Origin: a virus
Length of the DNA: 26,803 nt
Reading direction: 5' to 3' (one strand)
IMG/VR virus record: IMGVR_UViG_3300029448_005200
Location: 1 to 26,803 of that record
Positions 2 through 26,803 of this stretch are shown here, piece by piece. The notes under the pieces were generated by a model. It made no database searches. It was not told where the DNA came from and saw only the letters and a program-made list of their open reading frames with translations. Every line of letters begins with the position of its first letter. The stretch's first letter is position 1. The position numbers and the translations under genes are program-made.

Positions 2-1258
2 ATACCATTACTTGTAAGCACACCTAATAACGACTGGATACCTGCATTTGGAACACAAATATATAAAGCATTGTTTGGTGTAAAGACTTACATTATAAAA
101 ACTAATGATAATGGTATAGAAGAAATATCAATCAGAGGAATACCACCAATTAAAACAGATAGTCTTGGTCGTAAATGGATTAGTTGGATTGATACACCAC
201 AAACCGATTTAAAAGAGATGAATGTTGCAGGTAAGTTTGTGTTTGTAGGTGTAACTGCAAATGGCGTAATGCCACAAATAGCAACACCAGTTGGATTATT
301 AGAACCACATAAGATTCAAGCAGCATTATCTGAGTCAATTTTAATACAAGATAGTCCTTTTATACCTGATTATGCTTTAGCTGTAGAAATAGGTATATTT
401 TTAGTGTCTGTGGCTCTTATATGGCTTGTGTTGATTCGTTTAGGCATAACATGGGGAATTATATTAGGATTAGGTGTGATGGCTTCTACAGGCTCTCTTG
501 GTTATTACCTAATACAAAAAAGCTTATTGATTGATGTTACATGGACTTTAATATCACAGTTTATAACAGGTACAATAGCTTTTTATCTTAGATTTAGAGA
601 ACAATACAAGTTAAGACAACAAATTAAAAAACAATTTGAGCATTATCTTGACCCAAGACAAGTAAAAAGACTGCAAGATAACCCTGAACTACTTAAATTA
701 GGCGGTGAGAAGCGTTATTGCACCTATTTATTTACAGATGTGCGTGGTTTTACTGCATTGTCTGAAACATTAGAGCCTGAAGATGTTACATATATTATGA
801 ATAAGGCACTTACAGCACAACAAGAAGCAGTACAAAAACATGGTGGTATGGTTGATAAGTATATAGGTGATGCAATGATGGCCATATTTAATGCACCATT
901 AGATTTAGAAAAACACGAAGAAAAAGCATTAGCGTGTGCAATGGATATACAAAAAAATATGATAGAACTTAACTGTGTTCTTGTGAATAGAGGTTTTGCT
1001 CCTGTACATATTGGCATAGGTATAAATTCAGGTTATGCAGTTATTGGTAATATGGGTTCAGAATCAAGATTTGACTACACAGCAATAGGTGATGCTGTTA
1101 ATACAGCTGCAAGACTTGAATCAGGTACAAAACAAGCTCGTGTAAACTTACTAATTGGCGAAAGCACACAAAATGCATTAGAATTTGATTTAATACCTTT
1201 AGAACCAATAGAAGCTAAAGGTAAAAAAGAAAAGTTACAGGTGTATACATGGAATTAA
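2..1258 (+). CDS. CHASE2-domain class III adenylate cyclase, 5' end cut by window
   Basis: Membrane-bound nucleotide cyclase that should convert ATP to cAMP at the inner face of the cytoplasmic membrane. The frame is open from base 2, so the N-terminus lies outside and 418 residues are visible. The first ~100 residues look like the end of a CHASE2 extracytoplasmic sensor, including a GKFVFVGVTANG stretch. Three hydrophobic segments follow at about residues 125-195 of the fragment, then a short linker and a class III cyclase domain. That domain keeps all canonical positions: metal Asp in FTDVRGF (D246) and KYIGD (D290), adenine-selecting Lys (K286) and Asp (D358, in FDYTAIGD), and transition-state Asn and Arg (N367, R371, in NTAARLES). 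The Lys/Asp pair favours ATP over GTP. The stop overlaps the next gene by 10 nt, so it is joined to the lysis operon. Such an enzyme is unusual in a phage. Its sensor input and exact start cannot be seen. Confidence 0.93.
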   Translation: MPLLVSTPNNDWIPAFGTQIYKALFGVKTYIIKTNDNGIEEISIRGIPPIKTDSLGRKWISWIDTPQTDLKEMNVAGKFVFVGVTANGVMPQIATPVGLLEPHKIQAALSESILIQDSPFIPDYALAVEIGIFLVSVALIWLVLIRLGITWGIILGLGVMASTGSLGYYLIQKSLLIDVTWTLISQFITGTIAFYLRFREQYKLRQQIKKQFEHYLDPRQVKRLQDNPELLKLGGEKRYCTYLFTDVRGFTALSETLEPEDVTYIMNKALTAQQEAVQKHGGMVDKYIGDAMMAIFNAPLDLEKHEEKALACAMDIQKNMIELNCVLVNRGFAPVHIGIGINSGYAVIGNMGSESRFDYTAIGDAVNTAARLESGTKQARVNLLIGESTQNALEFDLIPLEPIEAKGKKEKLQVYTWN

Positions 1259-2368: not shown

Positions 2369-2764
2369 ATGTCTGATAGCGTTACACCATTCGTATACAA
2401 TGCTTTATTGGATAGGGTAGTAGATGGAGATACCATAGATGTAGTGCTAGATTTAGGCTTTTCAGTAAAGCTACACAAACAAAGAGTGCGATTAGCAGGT
2501 ATAGACACACCTGAATCACGCACAAGAAATTTAGAAGAAAAGGCATTAGGACTGAAAGCCAAAGATAGATTAATAGAACTATGTGTTGGCAATTTTAAAA
2601 TACAGTCATTAGGCAAAGGTAAATATGGCAGAATACTTGGCATTCCTTATACAGAAGATGGCCAAAGTATTTGTCAAATGCTTATTGATGAAGGACACGC
2701 AGTTGAGTACTGGGGTGGCAAAAAAACAGCAAAAGTCAGAGATGACGGAACATGGGGAGAATAA
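2369..2764 (+). CDS. thermonuclease-like (SNase-fold) nuclease
   Basis: 131-residue protein of the staphylococcal-nuclease family, which cleaves DNA and RNA using Ca2+. The active site is recognisable: DGDT (D21) early, then QRVRLAGIDTPESR carrying Arg41, Asp46, Thr47 and Glu49 (equivalents of R35, D40, T41, E43), and KGKYGR with Arg88 (R87). No signal peptide is seen, so it would act in the cytoplasm or be released on lysis. It lies between the holin-like gene and the endolysin with 1-2 nt spacing and is surely co-transcribed with them. Possible roles are host DNA/RNA degradation late in infection or reducing lysate viscosity. Confidence 0.9.
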   Translation: MSDSVTPFVYNALLDRVVDGDTIDVVLDLGFSVKLHKQRVRLAGIDTPESRTRNLEEKALGLKAKDRLIELCVGNFKIQSLGKGKYGRILGIPYTEDGQSICQMLIDEGHAVEYWGGKKTAKVRDDGTWGE

Positions 2765-6688: not shown

Positions 6689-7034
6689 AATTTACTCCTA
6701 AATTAATTAATTTATATACAATAGCTTTACTATTTTCTAATTTTTTTTTATCTATTACTTCTCCAAAGTTTGGTAGGTCATAGGCAATACGATTTTTTTT
6801 ATTTCGTATTGCTCTAATTGCAGCACTTATTGTAGGAGTTGCATAATATTTATTTTTTTTAATATAACCCTCACTGAAGCCACGTTCTGCATATACTCCC
6901 ATTATACGAACTTGTATATCTTTAAATTTAAGCCATTCGTTTTTAGTTTGTGCTTTTAGTAAAGTAAGAAATACAAGGTCGTTAATAGATAACTTTGTAA
7001 TATGTTTGCTTTTTATTGTTTCTGGTATATGCAT
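6678..7034 (-). CDS. unknown protein, possible winged-helix
   Basis: 118 residues, start overlapping the ERF stop by one base (TAATG). The segment SINDLVFLTLLKAQTKNEWL, a helix pair around residue 45-75 (GYIKKNKYYATPTISAAIRA) and a following strand pair are compatible with a winged-helix DNA-binding domain, with AIRAIRNKKNRI as the likely recognition helix and wing. No named family. The location between annealase and SSB-like genes suggests a DNA-binding accessory. Confidence 0.68.
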   Translation of the reverse strand: MHIPETIKSKHITKLSINDLVFLTLLKAQTKNEWLKFKDIQVRIMGVYAERGFSEGYIKKNKYYATPTISAAIRAIRNKKNRIAYDLPNFGEVIDKKKLENSKAIVYKLINLGVNYGN

Positions 7035-7468
7035 TACATTTCAAAATTAGTTGTTGCTTGATTACCATCATCGTCTGCACCTGTAGGCTCTACAGTAGCA
7101 GTTTCTTCTACTTTAATTCCTGCACCTATTCCACAAGCAGTTACTAAACTGTATCTTCTTGCATAGGTCATGGCACTACCAAACCCTTGTGCGTTATTTT
7201 TATCTGCAGGAACAAATATTTTACCTGCTGATAGTTCGCTACCATGCCCATAAAATACTGTTTCAATACATATTCCTTTATCGCTAAGTTCTGATTTTTG
7301 TAAAAACATTATTTCTTCATCTAGTAAAGGTTGTTTTACAGCATCTATACAGGATTCTAAAGTTGCATAACTACTTCTAAAGTGTGGATTAGTACCATCT
7401 TTATTAGCATTATCTATATTAGATTGTGCTTTTATTAAAGCGTTTATAAGTTCATTATTAGGTTTCAT
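7034..7468 (-). CDS. ERF-family single-strand annealing recombinase
   Basis: 144-residue annealase of the P22 Erf superfamily, which coats resected 3' strands and anneals homologous DNA. Evidence is the run NNAQGFGSAMTYARRYSLVT plus ACGIGAG (about residues 91-117), the family's most conserved block, together with an N-terminal block KDGTNPHFRSSYATLESCID. It is shorter than P22 Erf (about 200 aa) because the C-terminal region is brief. The upstream neighbour is a RecB-like nuclease, giving the usual exonuclease plus annealase pair; a 1-nt gap separates them. The product would serve replication-linked recombination or circularisation of phage ends. Confidence 0.9.
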   Translation of the reverse strand: MKPNNELINALIKAQSNIDNANKDGTNPHFRSSYATLESCIDAVKQPLLDEEIMFLQKSELSDKGICIETVFYGHGSELSAGKIFVPADKNNAQGFGSAMTYARRYSLVTACGIGAGIKVEETATVEPTGADDDGNQATTNFEM

Positions 7469-7469
7469 T

Positions 7470-8243
7470 TTAACTCCATATTTTTTTAGCTTCTTCTACT
7501 TCTATTGGATTGTTCCACATAAAATGGTCATAATTCGGATAGAATAAATTAGCTATTTGGTTTATATCATTTGAATAAGAGAGTAAGTTCATAATATTTA
7601 TGGCTACTTTCTTAACTACTGCAATATGCTCGTCAATATTATTAACAGGCATAGTAACAACTTCTGCTTTTTTAGAAGTTACATGCACATAATCTACTAA
7701 GGCATTAGAGTCCTCAGCTTTTGCGTAAACAGATAACTGTCTACAAACAGAAGGTGGTATATCAGAGGGTAATCTTTGTACAGTTTTTATATCTCTTACT
7801 GTACCCTCATATTGAAGGTCTATAAATCCTATTATTGGGATAGGCAGATCTTCAAACTGTAAGCTTACTTTTTTTTGATAAGAAACAGGTTTGCCTAATT
7901 CTCGGTAAAACTTTACTGCTGTTTCTACATATAAAGGTAAAAGGTTGCGTTCTTTTTCGTATTTCTTTGTGTCTATATCTATTTTATCTAAATAGTAATG
8001 ATATAAGCCATCGTATCTGCTTAGTGCTTCTTGTATTAATATATCAATAGATTTGTTTTCTTCTAAAGAGTTTCCAGTAATTTCATCTACTGTTGTACCA
8101 CGCCACATTGCAGGATTGCCTGTACCTTTAAATTTATGTAAATATCTAAATACAAACATAGCAGGCTCTAATATATAAGTATTAATAGAAGAAGCTGAAA
8201 GATGCTCTATATCAAACTGGTTAAATGGATTATTGCTACTCAT
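7470..8243 (-). CDS. RecB/Cas4-like PD-(D/E)XK exonuclease
   Basis: 257-residue nuclease of the PD-(D/E)XK superfamily. Motifs: LSASSINTYILEP near the start (the typical first helix of RecB-like nucleases), WRGTTVDE (G49, D53), then PIIGFIDLQYEGTVRDIKT with Asp142 and the D151-I-K153 catalytic pair, and RQLSVYAKA with Gln169 and Tyr173 (motif IV QxxxY). It probably degrades one strand from DNA ends to make the ssDNA used by the ERF annealase downstream. No Fe-S cysteine cluster of Cas4 type is seen. Start overlaps the stop of the 67-aa gene by one base. Confidence 0.87.
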   Translation of the reverse strand: MSSNNPFNQFDIEHLSASSINTYILEPAMFVFRYLHKFKGTGNPAMWRGTTVDEITGNSLEENKSIDILIQEALSRYDGLYHYYLDKIDIDTKKYEKERNLLPLYVETAVKFYRELGKPVSYQKKVSLQFEDLPIPIIGFIDLQYEGTVRDIKTVQRLPSDIPPSVCRQLSVYAKAEDSNALVDYVHVTSKKAEVVTMPVNNIDEHIAVVKKVAINIMNLLSYSNDINQIANLFYPNYDHFMWNNPIEVEEAKKIWS

Positions 8244-8446
8244 TATAAAACTTGTACTGCCTGTACATTATTTCTATTAGCATGGCTTTTGAAATCTGAC
8301 CATTGATATGATGACATAGAGTCGTCAATGCTTATTATTTGATTATCATATAATTTAAGTTTTTGTATTTTACGATACAGGTCAAGCAAGTTTTTTGCAG
8401 ATATGTGATATTGTGTTCTTTCTGTTATTAATATATAAGTTTTCAT
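8243..8446 (-). CDS. 67-aa unknown protein, first gene of the recombination operon
   Basis: Starts MKTYILITER, with GAGGT in the leader, 48 nt downstream of the shared promoter element. Beta-alpha pattern with an amphipathic helix (LLDLYRKIQKL) and a short C-terminal strand (NNVQAVQVL). No family is recognised. TAATG coupling to the exonuclease gene makes it a genuine operon member. Confidence 0.65.
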   Translation of the reverse strand: MKTYILITERTQYHISAKNLLDLYRKIQKLKLYDNQIISIDDSMSSYQWSDFKSHANRNNVQAVQVL

Positions 8447-8470
8447 TTTATTACCTCAATTTATTATTAC

Positions 8471-8516
8471 ATTTTACTTGTTTTTCTATTAATGTAAACC
8501 TTTTTTGGAATAAAAT
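8471..8516 (-). promoter_or_regulatory. leftward promoter with shared upstream box (copy 2)
   Basis: On the minus strand: TTCCAAAAAAGG, then -35 TTTACA (8493-8498), a 16-bp spacer, and -10 TAAAAT (8471-8476). It should transcribe the recombination operon from 8446 leftward. Best hexamers of the three copies. Confidence 0.78.
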
Positions 8517-8533
8517 ATAAATTAGTATTGCTC

Positions 8534-8579
8534 TTTAAAAACTTTTATATATAACTTATAATTCATATTTGGACTAATA
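8534..8579 (+). promoter_or_regulatory. rightward promoter of the modification cassette, near-leaderless
   Basis: Perfect -10 TATAAT at 8557-8562, 17 bp after a weak -35 TTTAAA at 8534-8539. A start point about 7 nt downstream would leave a leader of only ~10 nt, which consists of TGGACTAATA (8570-8579) abutting the ATG at 8580. The same decamer is found at 12604-12613. No Shine-Dalgarno is present, so leaderless-type initiation is possible. Confidence 0.6.
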
Positions 8580-8792
8580 ATGCATTTAAAAGAATATTTA
8601 AAAAATAAAAAACATACACAAATGTCGTTTATAGATTTAATAGAAATGGCTACAGATGTTCGTATTCCACAAGGTACATTAGCTAAATGGGTAACAGGTA
8701 CAAGAATTCCTAGAAAAGAAGAAATGCAAATACTGTATCAAGTAACAGAAGGTACTGTGCAACCAAATGATTTTTACGAATTACCTAAATGA
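8580..8792 (+). CDS. Cro/YdaS-like helix-turn-helix regulator
   Basis: 70-residue protein with one HTH domain: FIDLIEMATDVRIPQGTLAK gives the first and second helices and WVTGTRIPRKEEMQIL the end of the recognition helix and the next helix. Size and layout resemble Cro or YdaS-type phage repressors. It opens the rightward cassette and lies directly beside the divergent promoter of the recombination operon, the typical place for an autoregulator acting on both directions. Its stop overlaps the next ATG (ATGA). Candidate operators are the TGGACTAATA elements or the TTCCAAAAAAGG boxes; which one is unknown. Confidence 0.75.
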   Translation: MHLKEYLKNKKHTQMSFIDLIEMATDVRIPQGTLAKWVTGTRIPRKEEMQILYQVTEGTVQPNDFYELPK

Positions 8793-9181
8793 AAATAGGT
8801 TTTACCTGTGGTGCTTTTGATTTATTGCACGCAGGTCATGTAGTTATGCTTAAAGAAGCAAAAAATAACTGTGATTATTTAATTGTAGGGTTACAAACAA
8901 ATCCTAATTTAGACAGAGAAAAAAAGAATGTTCCAATACAGTCTATTTATGAAAGATTTATACAGCTAAGTGCAATAAAGTTTGTAGATGAGATATTAGT
9001 TTATGATACAGAATCAAGCTTGTTAGACTTATTAGAATCAACTCCGATTGATATTAGATTTGTTGGAGATGATTATAAAGGTAAAAATTTTACTGGTAAG
9101 GGTATTGGAAAAACTTTTTATACAAACAGAAAGCACTCATTTTCAACAACCTCTTTAAGAGAAAGAATACAAAAGGAATAA
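8789..9181 (+). CDS. TagD-like cytidylyltransferase (glycerol-3-phosphate cytidylyltransferase family)
   Basis: 130-residue nucleotidyltransferase of the HxGH family. The fold start MKIGFTCGAFDLLHAGHVVM carries the His14-Ala-Gly-His17 signature, ERF at residues 56-58 supplies a conserved Arg, and KHSFSTTSLRERI near the end is a variant of the RTxGISTT motif (Phe for Ile-Gly). Length equals that of B. subtilis TagD (129 aa). The reaction would be CTP + X-phosphate to CDP-X + PPi. X may be glycerol-3-phosphate but the acceptor cannot be read from sequence. It is overlapped by the HTH gene (ATGA) and is 3 nt before the ParB-like gene, so it belongs to the cassette that ends in a DNA-type glycosyltransferase. 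It may make the activated donor for that transfer. Confidence 0.85.
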   Translation: MKIGFTCGAFDLLHAGHVVMLKEAKNNCDYLIVGLQTNPNLDREKKNVPIQSIYERFIQLSAIKFVDEILVYDTESSLLDLLESTPIDIRFVGDDYKGKNFTGKGIGKTFYTNRKHSFSTTSLRERIQKE

Positions 9182-9184
9182 AAA

Positions 9185-9802
9185 ATGATAAAAGTAAAAG
9201 AAATAAATATAGAAGATATAGAAATAAATACAGAAAATCCTAGAAAACACTCAAACAAACAAGTATTTCAGATAGCAGATTCTATAAAAGAGTTTGGTTT
9301 TACTAATCCTTTACTTATAGATGAAAATAATTTTTTAATTGCTGGTCATGGAAGACTTATGGCAGCTAAAACATTAATTTACGAAACTGTGCCTTGTATA
9401 ATTTTAGAGGGTTTAACAGAAGACCAAAAAAAAGCACTTAATATTGCAGATAATAAAATTGCTATTAACTCTACTTGGGATGAAGAATTACTTTGGAAAC
9501 AAATAAAAGAATTAACAGATACAGACTTTAATATTAATTTAATAGGTTTTGATAAAGAACAGATTATGCCTTTTATTGAAGATGATAGGGTTGTAGAAAG
9601 TATTTTAAATGAATGGGAAGGTATGCCTGAATATAGTCAAAGTGATAAAACTTCTGTAAGAAGCGTAATAGTGCATTTTGCTTCTGACGAAGATTGCGAT
9701 AATTTCTTTGAATTGTTACAACAAAATCATACTGAAAAAACTAAGTCTATATGGTACCCAGAACAAGTATTTATGGATACAGAAAGTAAAAGATATGACT
9801 AA
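9185..9802 (+). CDS. ParB/Srx-fold protein
   Basis: 205 residues. The N-terminal ParB/sulfiredoxin-like domain (about 1-95) has INTENPRKHS (N18-P19-R20), SIKEFGFTNPLLID, and the phosphate-binding signature IAGHGR (G54-H55-G56-R57), followed by EDQKKALNIADNKIA. The C-terminal part (about 120-205) is separate, with SVIVHFASDEDCDNFFELL. This type of free-standing phage ParB-like protein is often found next to DNA methyltransferases or base-modification genes. The fold can bind NTP and in some members act as kinase or nuclease (sulfiredoxin, SerK), so its activity here is open. AAAGGAA precedes the start. It overlaps the glycosyltransferase by 8 nt. It is not likely to be a segregation ParB: no ParA is visible. 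Confidence 0.83.
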   Translation: MIKVKEINIEDIEINTENPRKHSNKQVFQIADSIKEFGFTNPLLIDENNFLIAGHGRLMAAKTLIYETVPCIILEGLTEDQKKALNIADNKIAINSTWDEELLWKQIKELTDTDFNINLIGFDKEQIMPFIEDDRVVESILNEWEGMPEYSQSDKTSVRSVIVHFASDEDCDNFFELLQQNHTEKTKSIWYPEQVFMDTESKRYD

Positions 9803-10664
9803 TCCTAAATATCCTTTATTTATAGTTTCTAAAGGACGTGCAGATTCAAGATATACAGCACGATATTTAGATTATATGAAAGTGCCTTATCGGTTAGTAA
9901 TAGAACCATCTGAATATGATATGTATCTTAAACATGTAAAGGATAAAAATAAATTACTAGAATTAGATATGTCATACAAAGAAAAGTACGATACCTGTGA
10001 TGATTTAGGTTTAACTAAATCTACTGGACCAGGGCCAGCAAGAAACTTTATATGGGATTATTCAATAAAAGAAGGCTACGACTATCATTGGGTTATGGAC
10101 GATAACATAAGAAGCTTTAGACGATATAACCTAAATGAAAAGGTTAAAGTATCTAGTGGAACTATTTTTAAAGCTATGGAAGATTTTGTTTTACGTTACG
10201 AGAATGTTGGTATGGCAGGGCCAAACTATTATATGTTTCAACCAGCAAGGAATAAAACACCACCTTTTATATTAAATACAAGGATATATTCTTGTAATTT
10301 TATAAAGAATGATTTGCCTTATAGGTGGCGTGGCAGATACAACGAAGATACTATTTTAAGCTTAGATATGTTAACTAATGGTCTTTGTACTATACAGTTT
10401 AATGCTTTTCTACAAGAAAAAATAACAACACAATCAGTAAGAGGTGGTAACTCCGAAGAGTTTTATGATAAAGAAGGCACATTAGAAAAATCTAAAATGC
10501 AATTAAAAGTTTATCCTGATATTTCTAAGGTTGTAAAAAGGTTTAATCGTATACATCATTATGTAGATTACAGTCAGTTTAAGATTAATAAGTTAATTAG
10601 AAAAAAGGATATTAACTTAAATAAGAATAAATATGATATGACTCTAAAAAGAGTTCCTTTATAG
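9795..10664 (+). CDS. TET-associated-type glycosyltransferase (TAGT), probable DNA-base glycosyltransferase
   Basis: 289 residues, ATG at 9795 inside the end of the ParB-like gene. The order of motifs matches the phage TAGT family as I recall it: YPLFIVSKGRAD at the N-terminus (S12-K13-G14-R15), VIEPSEYDMY, GPGPARNFIWDYS, the DxD-like HWVMDDNIRSF (D102-D103-N104), GMAGPNYYMF, NTRIYSCN, and YRWRGRYNEDTILSL (Asp185 as possible base). These features fit a GT-A fold enzyme that moves a sugar onto a hydroxymethylated base in DNA. No TET-type or hydroxymethylase gene is visible in the window, so the acceptor base must be made elsewhere or be different. It is the last gene of the rightward cassette and converges with the replication gene. 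Confidence 0.85.
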   Translation: MTNPKYPLFIVSKGRADSRYTARYLDYMKVPYRLVIEPSEYDMYLKHVKDKNKLLELDMSYKEKYDTCDDLGLTKSTGPGPARNFIWDYSIKEGYDYHWVMDDNIRSFRRYNLNEKVKVSSGTIFKAMEDFVLRYENVGMAGPNYYMFQPARNKTPPFILNTRIYSCNFIKNDLPYRWRGRYNEDTILSLDMLTNGLCTIQFNAFLQEKITTQSVRGGNSEEFYDKEGTLEKSKMQLKVYPDISKVVKRFNRIHHYVDYSQFKINKLIRKKDINLNKNKYDMTLKRVPL

Positions 10665-11300
10665 CTTTAAATCTTTTGCCCAATCAGTTGCAATAGGTCT
10701 ATCTTTTTTCTCTTTAATAATTTCTATATCATCTAAATATCTTCTTTGATTTAACCAAGTTACTGCGTGTGGTATAAATGTTTTATCTTTTTGTTCTTCT
10801 AAAGACTCTGCATATTCTTTTGTTTTTTGTAATAGTTCTTCCTTTTGTATTATTTGAATAGCTTTTTTATAAGATTTAGCTGATTCATATTTACTTGCTT
10901 TTCTTGGGTATTGGTTCCAGAAATCAATAAAGTCTGTGGAATAAAGAGTTTTAGTATCTTCTTTAGTATTACAGGGCTGTGATGCCCAGAGGGTGTGGGT
11001 GTCAGCACCCATAGGGTTCTTTATGCCCCTAGCTAGTTGTATGTAATAACGATTACTCGTAAAGCTTCCATTATCTAATATTCTATTTTGTATTTTAAGT
11101 ATTCCAAGCTTTTCAAACTCTTTAATAGTTCTTCTAACACCTCTTGAATCTTTAAGACCTACTATATCTGCAATGTGTTGATAACTTGGATAACAACTAC
11201 CTTTTTCGTCTGCATAGTTGCAAAGTATAACTAAAATTAATTTTTTAGTAGGTGTAAGACCTTTTACTTTAAAAGATAGATTAAGTAATTCTATAGACAT
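10659..11300 (-). CDS. O-like replication initiator, winged-helix N-terminus
   Basis: 213 residues in two parts. Residues 1-85 are a winged-helix domain (LTPTKKLILVILCNYADEKG, SYQHIADIVGLKDSRGVRRT, IKEFEKLGILKI). Residues ~120-205 carry the phage replisome-organiser pattern DFIDFWNQYPRKASKYESAK and FIPHAVTWLNQRRYLDD. This two-part build is that of lambda O/P22 gp18-like and DnaD-like initiators, which bind the origin and load the replicative helicase. The linker, residues 88-110, is coded by a GC-rich inverted-repeat island that may be the origin itself. AGAGGT lies before the ATG. It is last in a leftward operon and converges with the glycosyltransferase, with a 6-nt overlap. Confidence 0.85.
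   Translation of the reverse strand: MSIELLNLSFKVKGLTPTKKLILVILCNYADEKGSCYPSYQHIADIVGLKDSRGVRRTIKEFEKLGILKIQNRILDNGSFTSNRYYIQLARGIKNPMGADTHTLWASQPCNTKEDTKTLYSTDFIDFWNQYPRKASKYESAKSYKKAIQIIQKEELLQKTKEYAESLEEQKDKTFIPHAVTWLNQRRYLDDIEIIKEKKDRPIATDWAKDLKL
10972..11036. other. candidate replication origin: GC-rich inverted-repeat island in the initiator gene
   Basis: About 58% G+C by hand count in a region otherwise near 30%. It holds three successive inverted repeats: GGGC/GCCC (10974-10977, 10984-10987), TGGGTG/CACCCA (10996-11001, 11006-11011) and TAGGG/CCCTA (11012-11016, 11027-11031), plus a tandem GGGTGT pair and a palindrome CTAGCTAG at 11029-11036. An AT-rich stretch lies on either side. 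Position in the linker of an O-like gene parallels lambda ori. Confidence 0.5.
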
Positions 11301-20658: not shown

Positions 20659-21009
20659 ATGAGTGCAGGTTATCATCATTTTATTATAGAGCAGGGTGCT
20701 ACATTTGGTCAGACACTCACGCTTAAAGATTCATCTAACGCAGTAATAAACCTAACAGGTTTTACAGGTGCTATGTCACTTAAAGAAAAACCTGATGCAA
20801 CTGCAACAATCCTATCCCTCACAACTGCAAATGGTCGTATGACTATGGGTGGTAATGCTGGAACAATCGTACTAACAATAAGTTCTACAGATTCAGCTAG
20901 TCTATCGCCTGATGATGGTGTGTTTGATTTAGAAATAACAAGTGGTGCTGGTGTAGTAACAAGAATTATAGAGGGTACTTATAGTGTGAGGAGAAATATA
21001 ACAGCATGA
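20659..21009 (+). CDS. small beta-sandwich tail or baseplate protein (BppU N-terminal-like)
   Basis: 116 residues. The pattern FIIEQGATFGQTLTLKDSSN, VINLTGFTGAMSLKEKPDAT, LSPDDGVFDLEITSGAGVVT and RIIEGTYSVRRNIT resembles the N-terminal beta domain of phage baseplate upper proteins and adaptors. It likely joins the tail tip to fibres. Its stop overlaps the ATG of the giant fibre gene (ATGA), consistent with an adaptor-fibre pair. Named family not certain. Confidence 0.7.
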   Translation: MSAGYHHFIIEQGATFGQTLTLKDSSNAVINLTGFTGAMSLKEKPDATATILSLTTANGRMTMGGNAGTIVLTISSTDSASLSPDDGVFDLEITSGAGVVTRIIEGTYSVRRNITA

Positions 21010-24000
21010 GTTCTGTTGATAGTATTACAATTACAAGTGTTAGTACTGTAAATCAAATCACAATTACTGATACCAGTGGTATTACAGTTACTACAGTTGG
21101 AACACAAGGTGTTGCTGGTCCAAGTGCTATTATGGGCAGAGGTATTAATCAGAATACCGCAGGTGCTTCTAATAATGGTGCATTGCTCATATACGATAAT
21201 GCAAATGTTTTATGGACAGCAAACGATACAACTGAAGGCAAACAACTTACACAAAAACTTTTTAATCTACAGATAGGTGAAACAGGTGCAACTGTTGTCG
21301 CTATACTTGATGAAGATGGCATGGATTCTAATTCTGCTACTGCTTTATCTACACAACAAAGTATAAAAGCCTATGTAGATGCACAAGTAACATTACAAGA
21401 TTTAGACATAACAGATGGCACTACAACCATTGCTATTGATTTAGATAGCGAAACATTAGGATTAATTGGTGGTACAGGGATTAGTAGTACAGCTAGTGGT
21501 AACAATGTTACCTTCGCAATAGATGCTAATGTTGTAACCCTATCAGGAACACAAACCCTAACCAATAAAACATTAACGAGTCCTACATTAACAACACCAG
21601 TGTTTAACACATCAATATCAGGTAGTGCATTTCTTGATGAAGATGATATGGCAAGTAATAGTGCGACTAAACTTGCATCACAACAATCTATTAAGGCTTA
21701 TGTTGATACACAACTTACTGCTGAAGACTTAGATGTATCAGATGGGTCTAATAGTGGTTCTATAGACTTAGATTCTGAAGTCTTAGGTCTATTAGGTGGT
21801 ACAGGTCTCACTTCTTCTTTAAGTGGTAATAACTTTACCTTTGCAATAGATGCAACAGTTGCAACATTAGCTGGTACACAAACATTTACGAATAAAACAC
21901 TTACAGCACCTAAAATTAATGGTTCTACTGCTATAACCACAACAGGTACAGAAATAAATGTATTAGATGGTGATACTAGTGCATCTTCTGTAGTCCTTGT
22001 AGATGCAGACCAATTTATAGTGAATGACAATGGCACAATGAAACAATTAGCCATAACAAGGCTAGATACATACTTTTCAGGCACAACAGCAACATTAACT
22101 AACAAAACACTTACAAGCCCTGTACTAAATGGCACATTGTCAGGTACAGCATTTAAAGATGAAGATAATATGTCTAGTAATTCTGCTACAGCAGTTGCTA
22201 GTCAGCAATCAATCAAAGCGTATGTAGACTCAAACATAACAGCACAGGATTTAGATGTTTCTGATGGAAGTAACGATATAGCAATAGATTTAGATTCAGA
22301 AACACTTACATTAGCTGGTGGTACTGGTATAGATTCAACTGCAAACACTAATACAGTAACTTTTGCCATAGATAATACAGTAGCAACACTTGCAGGTAGT
22401 CAAACATTAACAAATAAAACATTTGATGTAGATAACAACACATTAAGCAATATAGAGGTAGATAATCTTAAATCAGGTGTATTAGATACTGATTTATCAA
22501 GTGTAGCAGCTACAGATACAACAATAGCATCTGCAAAAGCAATAAAAACCTATGTAGATACAAATATAACTGCACAAGACCTAGATATTAGTGATGGTTC
22601 TTCTACGATAGCAATTGACCTTGATTCAGAAACTTTATCCCTACTTGGTGGAACTGGGGTAAGTTCTACAGCATCAGGCAATGGTGTTACCTTTGCAATC
22701 GGTCAATCTGTAGGTACAGGAGATGATGTAGAGTTCAATCAAATAACAGGAGCATTGGTTGGTAATTCTTCTACTGCCACTGCATTAGCAACAGCTAGAG
22801 CCATAGCACTTTCAGGTGATGTAGTTGGTACTGCAAACTTTGATGGAACAGCAGGAATATCAATATCTACCACAATACAGGCTAACAGCGTTGCTTTAGG
22901 TACAGACACAACAGGTTCGTATGTTGAAAGCTTAGTTGCTGGAACTGGTGTATCTTTAGCAAACAATAGTGGCGAATCAGCAACACCAACGATTGCAATT
23001 GGTCAATCAGTAGGTACATCAGACAATGTTCAATTTGGAACAGTAACAGCAGCATTAAGTGGAAACGCATCAACTGCTACAGCTTTAGCTAATGCTCGTA
23101 CAATAGCCCTATCAGGTGATGTAACTGCTTCAGGAGTATCATTTGACGGAACAGGTAACATTACTTTATCTACTACAATAGCAGCAAATAGTGTTGCTCT
23201 TGGAACAGACACTACTGGCAACTATGTAGCAGGTATAAGTGGTACAACGAATGAAATAGAAGTTAGTGGTTCAGGAAGCGAAAGTTCTACTGTAACTATT
23301 GGATTGCCTGATAATGTGACTATATCAGGTAACTTAACTGTAAATGGAACAACAACAACTACAGATACTAACGAACTTCATGTTACAGACCCATTAATTA
23401 AATTAGCAAAAGACAATACAGCTAATTCTTTAGATATTGGTTTTTATGGTCAATACAGAGCATCAGGTTCTAATAATCAGTTCTCAGGTTTATTTAGAGA
23501 CCAAAACGACAGTGGTAAATACAAACTATTTGAACTACTAGAAGCTGAGCCTACAACTACTGTTAATACAAGTGGTACAGGTTTTCAGATAGCTACGTTA
23601 GTTGCAAACTTTGAAGGTAACGTTGTTGGTAATTTAACAGGTGCAATACAAACAGCAGCACAAACAAATATCACGAGTCTTGGAACACTGACTGCTTTAC
23701 AAGTAGATAACATAAATATAAATGGCAACACCATATCATCTACAGCAGGTACAGATTTAAACATTACGCCTTTAGCAGGACAACAGATAGTATTAGATGG
23801 TGCAATAATTATAGATGCAGGAGTAGTAACTGGTGCAACATCTATTACATCAACAGCATTTGTCGGAAATGTCACAGGTAATGTATCAGGAAGTTCAGCT
23901 ACTGTAACTGGTGCTGCTCAATCAAATATAACTTCTTTAGGAACTTTAACAGCATTACAAGTTGATAATATCAACATCAATGGTAATACTTTATCTAGCA

Positions 24001-26803
24001 CTGCAGGAACAGACCTCAATATAACTCCTCTTACAGGTCAACAAATTGTTTTAGATGGAACTATTATCATTGATGCTGGTGTTGTAACAGGTGCTACTTC
24101 TATTACCTCAACTGCCTTTGTAGGTGGATTGACAGGAGATGTGACAGGTAATGCAGATACATCAACAACATTAGCTAGTAACAGAAACTTCTCAATTTCA
24201 GGTGATATAACTGCATCTGCTGTAGCCTTTAATGGTTCAGGCAATGTAGTACTAAGTGCAAGTATTGATGACAATGTTGTAGGTGCATCTCAATTAAATA
24301 TTTCAGGTAATGGTGTAGCAGGTCAAGCAATTTTATCTGATGGTGATGGTTCATTTAGTTATGGCGATGCTTCTAAAACGACTGAACAAATACAAGACAT
24401 TGTTGGTGGTATGGTTTCCAGTAACACCGAAACTGGTATCACTGTTACTTATGAAGATGGCGATGGAACATTAGATTTCGTTATAAACCCTGTTCAAACA
24501 ACTATTACAAGTTTATTAGCCACCGATATAAAGATTGGTGAAGATGACCAAACAAAAATAGACTTTGGAACAGCAGATGAAATACATTTCTTTGCAGGTA
24601 ATGAAAGTCAAATCAAACTAACAAATGGTGCTTTAGTCCCATCTACAGATAATGATGTAGATTTAGGAACATCATCTGCAGAGTTTAAAAACGCATTCTT
24701 TGATGGCACTGTAACTTCTGATGCATTTAGTGGCCCTTTAACTGGTGCAGTTACAGGTAATGCTAGTACAGCTACAGCTTTAGAAACAGCTAGAACGATT
24801 GGTGGCACAAGTTTTGATGGTACAGGTAATATTGCAGTAGCACTTTCTGCTACAGCTACAGCACTTGCTAATGCTCGTACTATTGGTGGTGTATCTTTTG
24901 ATGGAACAGCTAATATTAATCTTGCAGGTGTAAACGCAACAGGTAATCAAGATACAACAGGAAATGCTGCAACAGCAACTATATTAGCTACAGCAAGAAC
25001 AATCGGTGGTACTTCCTTTGATGGAAGTGCAAATATAGCTGTCGCTTTAGCAACAACTGCTACTACTCTAGCAAACGCAAGAACTATAAATGGTGTTAGC
25101 TTTGATGGTAGTGCAAACATAACAACCCTTACAGCAGGAACAGGTGTATCGGTATCAGGAACAGAAGTAGCTATAGGACAAGCTGTAGCGACTTCTAGTA
25201 GTCCTACATTTACTAATATGACACTTAGTGGTACTGATTCAATTAAAGTACCAGCAGGAACTACAGGTCAAAGAAATGGCTCACCTGCAAATGGTATGTT
25301 TAGGTATAACTCAACTAACGAAGAGTTTGAAGGCTATCAAAATGGTGCATGGGGTGCAATAGCAGGTGGTGGTGCAAGTGCTATGGAGACCAACACTTTT
25401 ACAGGTGATGGTTCTACAAGAGCATTTACAATAAGTTCTAATGTTGTTAGTGAAGATAATCTAATTATATTTATAGAAGGTGTTTTTCAAAATAAAGCAG
25501 ATTTTGTAGCAAGTGGCACAACAGTTACATTTGACACAGCACCAGCTAATACAAGAAAGATTGTAATAAATCACATAAGAGCATCTATTGCAGGTTCTTC
25601 AGTAGCACAAAATGCATTTAGTGGAGATGGCTCAACAGTTGCCTACACCTTATCAATTAGTCCAACTAACGAAGATAACACCCAAGTATATGTAGATGGT
25701 GTATATCAACACAAATCAACTTATGCAGTAAGTGGCACAACTCTTACTTTTGATACTGCTCCTGTAAATGGAACAGCTATAGAAGTAATCATGTTTAGTC
25801 AAACATCTGTAAATGTACCAGCATCTAATAGCGTAACTACAAGTACAATTGTTGATGCTAATGTTACAACTGCAAAAATACTAAACGCTAATGTAACAAC
25901 AGCAAAACTTGCTGATAACGCAGTTACTACAGCTAAAATTACAGATGCTAATGTAACCACTGCAAAGATTTCCGATAGTGCAATTACCAGTGCAAAGATA
26001 GCCGATGGAACTATTGCGACTGCTGATATTGCAGATGATGCAGTTACTTCAGCAAAACTAGATACTAATATAAGTGTTGCAGGTACATTAGCTTCTACAG
26101 GAGTTCTCACTGCAAATGCAGGTGTAGTTGTAGACAACATAACAATAGATGGTACAGAGATAGATTCTAGTGGAGCTTTAACACTAGATGCAGCAGGACA
26201 ACTTAATATAGATTCAGGTAATGATGAAATACATTTAAGAGGTGCAGGCACTACATTCGGTAAATTATTTACATCAGGTAATGACTTTTATATAAATCAC
26301 CCAGCAACAGACGAAGACATATTCATTACTGGTAATGATGGTGGCTCAACAGTTACAGCAGTAAAATTTGATATGTCAGAAGGTGGAACAGCAGAATTTA
26401 ATAGTGCTGTTGTCTTAGGTGGTTCATTAGTAAAAGTAGGAGATATGACACTTGATGCAGGTGGGGATATTATTCTTGATGCAGATGGTGGAGATGTAAT
26501 ACTAAAAGATGGTGGTACAAATTTTGCAATATTAAGCAAAGCTGGTGCTAATTTAGATATTTACAATGCAGGAAATAATGGTAGCGTTGTATTTAAAGGC
26601 GAAGATGGTGGAACAGGTATTACTGCCCTTACCCTTGATATGTCAGCAGCAGGTAAAGCAATATTTAATGCAGGTGCTACATTTACTCAACCTATATCTT
26701 TTGGAACTTTTATACCAAGCGATGGCAAAACAATAAAAGTTTATGAAGATGGAAACATAGCTTCAGGTATAGGTGTAGTTTCAGGAGTTTATAGAAACTT
26801 TAC
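21006..26803 (+). CDS. giant tail-fibre protein, 3' end beyond window
   Basis: Open frame of 1932 full codons from the ATG at 21006 (MSSVDSITITSVSTVNQITI) to the window edge. Codons sampled near 23661, 24360, 25851 and the last bases are all in the same frame. It is nearly Lys/Arg-poor, rich in Thr, Ser, Gly, Ala, Asp and Asn, and built from beta-helix-type repeats, as in trimeric fibres that bind host surface. Visible parts: an N-terminal region, four QQSIKAYVD/TFAID units (21309-22745), SGDVT/ARTI-type units, an 86-residue duplication (23661-24137), a further ARTIGGTSFDG series (about 24763-25130), two GDGST/FDTAP repeats (about 25390-25800), seven decapeptides (25851-26060) and a Gly/Asp-rich beta region. 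The end, where the receptor-binding tip or chaperone should be, is not seen. Confidence 0.93.
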   Translation, partial: MSSVDSITITSVSTVNQITITDTSGITVTTVGTQGVAGPSAIMGRGINQNTAGASNNGALLIYDNANVLWTANDTTEGKQLTQKLFNLQIGETGATVVAILDEDGMDSNSATALSTQQSIKAYVDAQVTLQDLDITDGTTTIAIDLDSETLGLIGGTGISSTASGNNVTFAIDANVVTLSGTQTLTNKTLTSPTLTTPVFNTSISGSAFLDEDDMASNSATKLASQQSIKAYVDTQLTAEDLDVSDGSNSGSIDLDSEVLGLLGGTGLTSSLSGNNFTFAIDATVATLAGTQTFTNKTLTAPKINGSTAITTTGTEINVLDGDTSASSVVLVDADQFIVNDNGTMKQLAITRLDTYFSGTTATLTNKTLTSPVLNGTLSGTAFKDEDNMSSNSATAVASQQSIKAYVDSNITAQDLDVSDGSNDIAIDLDSETLTLAGGTGIDSTANTNTVTFAIDNTVATLAGSQTLTNKTFDVDNNTLSNIEVDNLKSGVLDTDLSSVAATDTTIASAKAIKTYVDTNITAQDLDISDGSSTIAIDLDSETLSLLGGTGVSSTASGNGVTFAIGQSVGTGDDVEFNQITGALVGNSSTATALATARAIALSGDVVGTANFDGTAGISISTTIQANSVALGTDTTGSYVESLVAGTGVSLANNSGESATPTIAIGQSVGTSDNVQFGTVTAALSGNASTATALANARTIALSGDVTASGVSFDGTGNITLSTTIAANSVALGTDTTGNYVAGISGTTNEIEVSGSGSESSTVTIGLPDNVTISGNLTVNGTTTTTDTNELHVTDPLIKLAKDNTANSLDIGFYGQYRASGSNNQFSGLFRDQNDSGKYKLFELLEAEPTTTVNTSGTGFQIATLVANFEGNVVGNLTGAIQTAAQTNITSLGTLTALQVDNININGNTISSTAGTDLNITPLAGQQIVLDGAIIIDAGVVTGATSITSTAFVGNVTGNVSGSSATVTGAAQSNITSLGTLTALQVDNININGNTLSSTAGTDLNITPLTGQQIVLDGTIIIDAGVVTGATSITSTAFVGGLTGDVTGNADTSTTLASNRNFSISGDITASAVAFNGSGNVVLSASIDDNVVGASQLNISGNGVAGQAILSDGDGSFSYGDASKTTEQIQDIVGGMVSSNTETGITVTYEDGDGTLDFVINPVQTTITSLLATDIKIGEDDQTKIDFGTADEIHFFAGNESQIKLTNGALVPSTDNDVDLGTSSAEFKNAFFDGTVTSDAFSGPLTGAVTGNASTATALETARTIGGTSFDGTGNIAVALSATATALANARTIGGVSFDGTANINLAGVNATGNQDTTGNAATATILATARTIGGTSFDGSANIAVALATTATTLANARTINGVSFDGSANITTLTAGTGVSVSGTEVAIGQAVATSSSPTFTNMTLSGTDSIKVPAGTTGQRNGSPANGMFRYNSTNEEFEGYQNGAWGAIAGGGASAMETNTFTGDGSTRAFTISSNVVSEDNLIIFIEGVFQNKADFVASGTTVTFDTAPANTRKIVINHIRASIAGSSVAQNAFSGDGSTVAYTLSISPTNEDNTQVYVDGVYQHKSTYAVSGTTLTFDTAPVNGTAIEVIMFSQTSVNVPASNSVTTSTIVDANVTTAKILNANVTTAKLADNAVTTAKITDANVTTAKISDSAITSAKIADGTIATADIADDAVTSAKLDTNISVAGTLASTGVLTANAGVVVDNITIDGTEIDSSGALTLDAAGQLNIDSGNDEIHLRGAGTTFGKLFTSGNDFYINHPATDEDIFITGNDGGSTVTAVKFDMSEGGTAEFNSAVVLGGSLVKVGDMTLDAGGDIILDADGGDVILKDGGTNFAILSKAGANLDIYNAGNNGSVVFKGEDGGTGITALTLDMSAAGKAIFNAGATFTQPISFGTFIPSDGKTIKVYEDGNIASGIGVVSGVYRNF
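21309..22745 (+). repeat. four tail-fibre repeat units (QQSIKAYVD ... TFAID)
   Basis: Units begin at 21309, 21636, 22158 and 22491. Shared elements are DED-M-SNSAT, QQSIKAYVD, DLDxxDGS, IDLDSE, GGTG, TFAID and GTQTxTNKT. The fourth copy is more diverged (AKAIKTYVD). Confidence 0.85.
23661..24137 (+). repeat. 86-residue tandem duplication in the tail fibre
   Basis: Copies start at 23661 and 23919, 258 nt apart. Over the first 73 codons, by hand count, 21 are identical, 46 differ synonymously and 6 differ in amino acid. Confidence 0.9.
25851..26060 (+). repeat. seven decapeptide repeats (xDAxVTTAKI)
   Basis: Seven consecutive 30-bp units coding for variants of ADANVTTAKI: for example VDANVTTAKI, LNANVTTAKL, ADNAVTTAKI, TDANVTTAKI, SDSAITSAKI, ADGTIATADI, ADDAVTSAKL. 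Exact period and uniform spacing suggest a helical or coiled-coil shaft segment. Confidence 0.85.

Follow-up and report, generated by a model that had tools for sequence, protein, structure and literature searches.

A ParB-headed phage module with a TAGT glycosyltransferase: putative DNA glycosylation, likely on a target other than the usual hydroxymethyl base

What does a phage glycosyltransferase of the TAGT family modify when its gene is found apart from the known routes to a hydroxymethylated base? To our knowledge, the well-characterized phage DNA glycosyltransferases all need a hydroxylated base or a sugar that is already on the DNA. The question is raised by a four-gene cassette of a marine phage, in a linear viral record of 26,803 bases from IMG/VR, which was analyzed at its whole length (hereafter, the window) and is probably a fragment. 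A domain search of the window revealed no thymidylate synthase/hydroxymethylase, Tet_JBP, C5-methylase or N6_N4 methylase domain, in agreement with the first-pass annotation, which had implied a hydroxymethylated DNA base as the acceptor. The module that emerges is a putative DNA glycosylation system whose target is likely not the usual hydroxymethyl base.

The four open reading frames and their plus-strand orientation (Table 1) were borne out, as were the ATGA overlap, the 3-nt gap and the 8-nt overlap between them. The flanking genes had been described as running against the cassette, and they all lie on the minus strand: to the left, the leftward frame at 8243–8446, a PD-(D/E)XK gene (7470–8243) and an ERF gene (7034–7468); to the right, the gene of a replication-initiation protein (10659–11300). 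The description of the cassette as one operon was upheld, and the gene order is kept in the nearest relatives. Many viral contigs display the identical HTH-CYT-ParB-TAGT order. The four genes do not, however, constitute an obligate set. All four are under purifying selection, with dN/dS values against the two nearest relatives that span 0.04–0.15 (HTH, 0.13–0.15; CYT, 0.04–0.05; ParB, 0.07–0.08; TAGT, 0.08–0.09), implying that they are real, constrained genes.

The match of the HTH protein to HTH_3 is weak and falls under the Pfam cut-off of 23 bits. Its gene was found in close relatives only in the survey of TAGT loci, and the protein is probably the regulator of the divergent junction. Promoter-like hexamers are present in the intergenic region at 8534–8562 (plus strand) and 8498–8471 (minus strand); they are assigned by position only, and promoter-like matches are no more numerous across the region than in shuffled sequences. 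Rfam and tRNA scans of the window found nothing, and a nucleotide search with the cassette region against isolated phages gave no match.

Table 1. Features of the cassette and of the adjoining intergenic region, in window coordinates.
Feature	Position	Strand	Matches and remarks
Intergenic region	8447..8579	.	AT-rich, divergent; separates early leftward operon from cassette
HTH (Cro/CI-like) protein, 70 aa	8580..8792	+	HTH_3 20.1 bits; phrog_35 repressor 1.9e-4
CYT, CTP_transf_like nucleotidyltransferase, 130 aa	8789..9181	+	PF01467 48.5 bits; phrog_7878 2.8e-37
ParB head, residues 1-127 of 205-aa protein (ORF 9185-9802)	9185..9565	+	PF02195 35.5 bits
EW domain, residues 140-205 of ParB protein	9602..9799	+	EWxGMPEF ... 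VHF ... TEKTKSIWYP
TAGT-family GT-A glycosyltransferase, 289 aa	9795..10664	+	PF20691 132.5 bits

Elsewhere in the window, a CHASE2-adenylate cyclase gene truncated by the record start is represented by its 3' part at positions 71–1258 (plus strand). Because an intact 629-aa version is found in a marine phage contig (L093, 796–2685), it represents a phage gene rather than host flank. A staphylococcal-nuclease-like (SNase) gene at 2369–2764 (plus strand) is located directly ahead of a lysozyme-like gene, and a 1932-aa open frame at 21006–26801 (plus strand), which leaves the record at its right end, is probably a repetitive tail or fiber gene.

The assignment of the last gene to the TAGT family was confirmed by its PF20691 score, for which the cut-off is 27.5 bits, and by the motifs MDDN, WRGRYNEDT and GGN, which are invariant in an alignment of 30 sequences. 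The AlphaFold2 model of the product is a confident one (pLDDT 89.7, pTM 0.89). A comparison of this model with the PDB, suggested at the outset as a check, returned GT-A enzymes as the best matches, namely beta4GalT, GnT-I and LARGE1 (Foldseek; weak, with E 3.7e-4 and TM 0.3–0.5), and the modeled fold appears GT-A-like. A sequence search against solved structures gave no match. In a joint tree of the T6, TET-type and Rac-type TAGTs with the window clade, long branches were obtained, and their mutual order was not used.

The ParB/Srx fold that had been attributed to the third gene was likewise supported, both by the PF02195 match (cut-off 26.3 bits) and by a Foldseek search with the model of the head, which retrieved ParB, Noc, KorB, sulfiredoxin (Srx) and SerK (best E 1.6e-6). 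The head corresponds to the ParB-CTPase fold and contains a Box-II-like GHGR motif, in which Gly54 and Arg57 are invariant among 25 aligned relatives. Phage ParB fusions to DNA methyltransferases feature in a 2025 survey, which demonstrated NTP binding through the Box II arginine; its replacement by alanine abolishes NTP binding in the tested members of the fold (PMC12704722). The protein is not a canonical ParB partition protein, as it scores 35.6 bits against the TIGR00180 cut-off of 58.45 bits and carries the EW tail in place of the HTH DNA-binding and C-terminal dimerization domains. It is not a phage ParB-DNA methyltransferase either; the head is common to both, and the methyltransferase domain is absent.

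The EW domain constitutes the tail of the ParB protein and encompasses about 60 residues. A Pfam search with this region gave no match over the cut-off, and no curated family covers it. A survey of TAGT loci from viral contigs (80) and bacterial genomes (52) revealed a ParB/EW gene immediately upstream of TAGT almost everywhere. The 144 distinct loci comprise ParB-EW plus TAGT (88), EW plus TAGT (24), an EW-TAGT fusion (14) and EW, one gene and TAGT (4); no EW was seen at nine, and five lie at a contig edge. A direct check of the 140 distinct non-edge loci placed EW within TAGT or immediately before it in 136, and two of the four others are fragments. In the converse search, TAGT was present at all 77 new viral EW loci among the best 80 matches, with no EW outside a TAGT context among the matches listed, and a search of 762 other bacterial genomes found no EW.

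In the cultivated phages Aeromonas 65, Tenacibaculum PTm1 and Vibrio Kuja, EW forms the N-terminus of TAGT itself. The clade tree shows at least 12 changes of the ParB-EW plus TAGT label and at least five of the fusion label. From the near-constant association of EW with TAGT and these repeated changes, the two behave as one functional unit, to which ParB is attached as a separable head. The stable core is TAGT with EW, not the set of four genes. Tandem copies were also observed: Vibrio phage Kuja carries two consecutive EW-TAGT fusion genes (L145:5557–8269), and another contig (L158) has two TAGTs in tandem.

The head connects the module with DNA methyltransferases. It shares 60% identity with its counterpart in a ParB-N6/N4 methyltransferase from Psychrobacter phage pOW20-A, and it matches the PADLOC model of a type II methyltransferase (7e-33), aligning to the N-terminal part of the model. 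The match is to the head alone; PADLOC found no whole system, and a reading of the cassette as an anti-phage defense system was consequently discarded. ParB-methyltransferase fusions are positioned directly before TerS-TerL in P8625 and pOW20-A. The fusion in 1.213.O is at the record end and the terminase at its start, which corresponds to the same slot if the ends are joined. ParB-TAGT occupies this pre-terminase slot in E. coli, in the Lactobacillus phages phi jlb1 and phiLdb and in many contigs; the window cassette is not directly upstream of a terminase and has genes of replication and recombination around it. That a single head is combined with different enzyme tails in one and the same slot speaks for a shared substrate of these tails, and the substrate of the methyltransferases is DNA. 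The pre-terminase ParB partner of Pasteurella phage Pmp13 (L301:4474–5574) matches an ABC ATPase and a GNAT acetyltransferase, with a very weak match to Mom (14.2 bits, below the cut-off), and may represent a further DNA-modifying tail of this head.

The E. coli pair is found in Escherichia phage 673R7 and in Rac-type prophages, which carry ynaK, a TAGT-family gene (120.6 bits), a small ORF, TerS and TerL. The TAGT partner of YnaK is 28% identical to the window TAGT over 99 residues. The DNA of the pair matches 1,575 of 5,426 complete E. coli genomes, 887 of them at a cover of at least 80%, and K-12 has a truncated ynaK and no TAGT. An archaeal virus, HHTV-2, also carries a ParB-TAGT pair. The Rac-type TAGT (L284:4719–5651; L290:6785–7717) is annotated as a hypothetical protein, with the accession WP_020233805.1 in L290. 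In the latter locus, ynaK is marked as a partial pseudogene, although in 673R7, whose DNA is identical here, the ParB frame is open over 263 aa. The TAGT of phiLdb (L295:848–1713) is split into two overlapping ORFs, which represents either a broken gene or a sequencing error.

The mechanism that we propose, and which we regard as an even bet, is that of a ParB-headed module for the glycosylation of phage DNA. The head would bind an NTP and bring the enzyme to the DNA, and the EW tail would dock onto TAGT. TAGT would then decorate DNA with a sugar or a polyol, probably in a site-selective manner, and this group would serve as a protective mark, presumably against restriction, in the role that a ParB-DNA methyltransferase plays in other phages. 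CYT would activate a CDP- or ADP-linked donor and feed it to TAGT, and the HTH protein would control the operon. A more far-reaching version, in which ParB-NTPase-guided TAGTs, widespread and equipped with EW as an adaptor, attach sugars directly, at selected sites, to phage DNA that is ordinary and not hydroxymethylated, is tentative, and we consider it rather doubtful.

The evidence against a DNA acceptor is that the window and its small relatives encode no known hydroxymethylase, TET or C5-methylase, so that an acceptor on DNA would not be of a kind known so far. A rival reading is hypermodification of the T-even or TET type, in which TAGT would glucosylate a hydroxymethylated pyrimidine and the window, a fragment, would lack the hydroxymethylase or TET that another part of the genome encodes. 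TAGT is named for its TET neighbors, and TET, TAGT and a methyltransferase are adjacent in Nonlabens phage P12024L, which scores 96 bits for TET and was used as a control. In the T6 control, a thymidylate-synthase-family gene (23033–23548) adjoins TAGT (22356–22967), and the T2/T6 enzyme acts on glucose that is borne on DNA (PMC13216743). The large T4-like relatives with EW-TAGT also carry a gene of this family, but it was found only in the large phages PTm1, Kuja, 65 and henriette, and in none of 23 small TAGT contigs, some of them up to 53 kb.

Moreover, the complete ParB-TAGT genomes of 673R7, HHTV-2 and phi jlb1 encode neither a thymidylate-synthase-type enzyme nor TET. A profile search that was positive in its control found no TET in the window and the small relatives, no C5-methylase was detected in the window or in 15 viral contigs tested, and the P12024L TAGT, which lacks EW, has just 25% identity. 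Searches for acceptor chemistry of the T-even or TET type found none, with working controls. A hydroxymethylated base, as initially implied, is contradicted by the small relatives and the complete ParB-TAGT viral genomes, and a hydroxymethylation route outside the fragment seems improbable to us. The absence of the known routes implies that the acceptor is either a position on DNA beyond them or not DNA. A 2026 study found solitary TAGTs in 288 of 753 phage genomes and proposed that they are novel transferases (PMC13216743).

As a GT-A enzyme, TAGT could also use a protein, an RNA or a surface glycan. Glycosylation of a packaging or head protein (terminase, portal or capsid) would explain the adjacency of the terminase and head genes: TerS-like genes are found in the TAGT operon at 38 and TerL at 36 of the 144 distinct loci, and portal/head genes are neighbors in many. 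GT-A enzymes commonly act on proteins and glycans, and the best structural matches are protein-glycan transferases. The region before the late genes is, however, a common cargo site, and the window cassette lies among the replication and recombination genes. In addition, the DNA methyltransferases of the same slot have the ParB head, and the characterized TAGT members act on DNA (PMC13216743). A packaging or head protein is, in our judgment, an unlikely target.

The second gene had been read as a cytidylyltransferase that could make a CDP-activated donor. It encodes a CTP_transf_like enzyme with the motifs HAGH and RKHSFSTT, and its nearest solved structures are an ethanolamine-P cytidylyltransferase (1.2e-19) and TagD (1coz; 5.7e-16). 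The names TagD (TIGR01518, glycerol-3-phosphate cytidylyltransferase; 66.6 bits against an equivalog cut-off of 165.4) and RfaE (TIGR02199, heptose-1-P adenylyltransferase; 76.2 against 181.5) were rejected on these scores, and the donor may be either CDP- or ADP-linked. The enzyme class thus stands, CYT is probably the supply of an activated donor, and a CDP-linked donor is plausible. At L092:3837–4949, a gene with a match to DruA (Druantia defense protein) directly precedes CYT, and the CYT survey places members of its family close to CYT at 19 loci.

CYT lies within 2.5 kb of TAGT in 11 of the 144 distinct loci, and other sugar-nucleotide or transferase genes take its place elsewhere. Within the same distance are SDR sugar-nucleotide enzymes (11), extra glycosyltransferases (13), SAM methyltransferases (3) and radical SAM proteins (2). 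Sugar-nucleotide and transferase partners number 41 near TAGT versus 6 far from it (about 615 kb each), a comparison that is partly circular, the families having been picked among the neighbors. The SDR of one locus (L076) is a UDP-glucuronate decarboxylase (E 1e-118 to solved UXS1), implying a UDP-xylose donor in that lineage. TAGT is fused to a methyltransferase at L086. At L013:6475–7998 and L055:195–1736, the module gains a second transferase through the fusion of ParB-EW with a protein that resembles Gly_transf_sug glycosyltransferases. CYT looks like one of several interchangeable sugar-supply genes, with a fixed transferase at the center and exchangeable functions of donor supply and decoration around it.

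The resemblance of CYT to TagD and to domain II of RfaE would also suit a transferase of lysogenic conversion or superinfection exclusion, which would modify LPS or another host target with a CDP-glycerol- or ADP-heptose-like donor. CYT is close to sugar-nucleotide genes in marine T4-like phages, and a similar pattern in jumbo cyanophages has been attributed to surface polysaccharide (PMC7824862). By contrast, the pair of the window is soluble, has a ParB head and comes without flippase or polymerase, and the links to terminase, recombination and replication genes are not typical of a seroconversion cassette, which makes a host target unlikely. That an HTH regulator, a moron nucleotidyltransferase and a separate ParB/TAGT pair are neighbors with no joint function is highly improbable: CYT and HTH are each missing from most TAGT loci, and CYT occurs without EW-TAGT in 50 loci of the CYT search, but stop and start codons overlap, the identical four-gene order recurs in many contigs, CYT is found downstream of TAGT in another lineage and adjoins a TAGT paralog in marine T4-like phages, and this explanation cannot apply to the ParB tail and TAGT.

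The TAGT family, the ParB fold and the existence of solitary, unexplained TAGTs are already known. New, as far as checked, are the EW domain, its strict pairing with TAGT, the head and slot that the module has in common with DNA methyltransferases, and the finding, from searches with controls, that the expected acceptor pathway is missing. No paper linking TAGT to ParB was found in the literature examined, a comparison that does not extend to Iyer 2013, where TAGT was reportedly named. A widespread TAGT family without a hydroxylation route points to a new DNA mark or to a new acceptor. Should the mark be on DNA, it would bear on the evasion of restriction and CRISPR, and it would explain some of the solitary TAGTs left open by the 2026 study (PMC13216743). 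ParB-guided glycosylation of DNA, if true, would be the sugar counterpart of ParB-guided DNA methylation, in phages that include E. coli prophages and in an archaeal virus. The Rac-type E. coli prophages, whose ParB-TAGT pair is annotated as hypothetical, offer a tractable test system.

The module can be compared with several known systems. The T2/T6 TAGT (beta-glucosyl-HMC-alpha-glucosyltransferase) is likewise a soluble phage enzyme with PF20691 and a GT-A fold (PMC13216743). The T6 enzyme, however, follows dCMP hydroxymethylase and an alpha-GT, extends glucose already on DNA, has neither EW nor ParB and is missed by the profile of the window clade. The TET-TAGT-methyltransferase system of P12024L also places a TAGT family member in a small marine phage, but the window has EW and ParB in place of TET and methyltransferase, with 25% identity between the TAGTs. 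CYT belongs to the same superfamily as TagD and RfaE domain II, with the HxGH and STT motifs, and differs in falling short of both equivalog scores. The phage ParB-DNA methyltransferase fusions (ParB_N_like_MT; N6_N4_Mtase) share the head (60% identity) and, in several phages, the slot before TerS-TerL, whereas the enzyme of the window is a glycosyltransferase, encoded by a separate gene and presumably attached through EW. Finally, the Rac-type YnaK-TAGT pair of E. coli represents another TAGT branch, with a different ParB C-terminal domain without EW and with no CYT; it displays the same arrangement of a ParB head, 46% identical between the window protein and YnaK, followed by a TAGT-family gene and the terminase.
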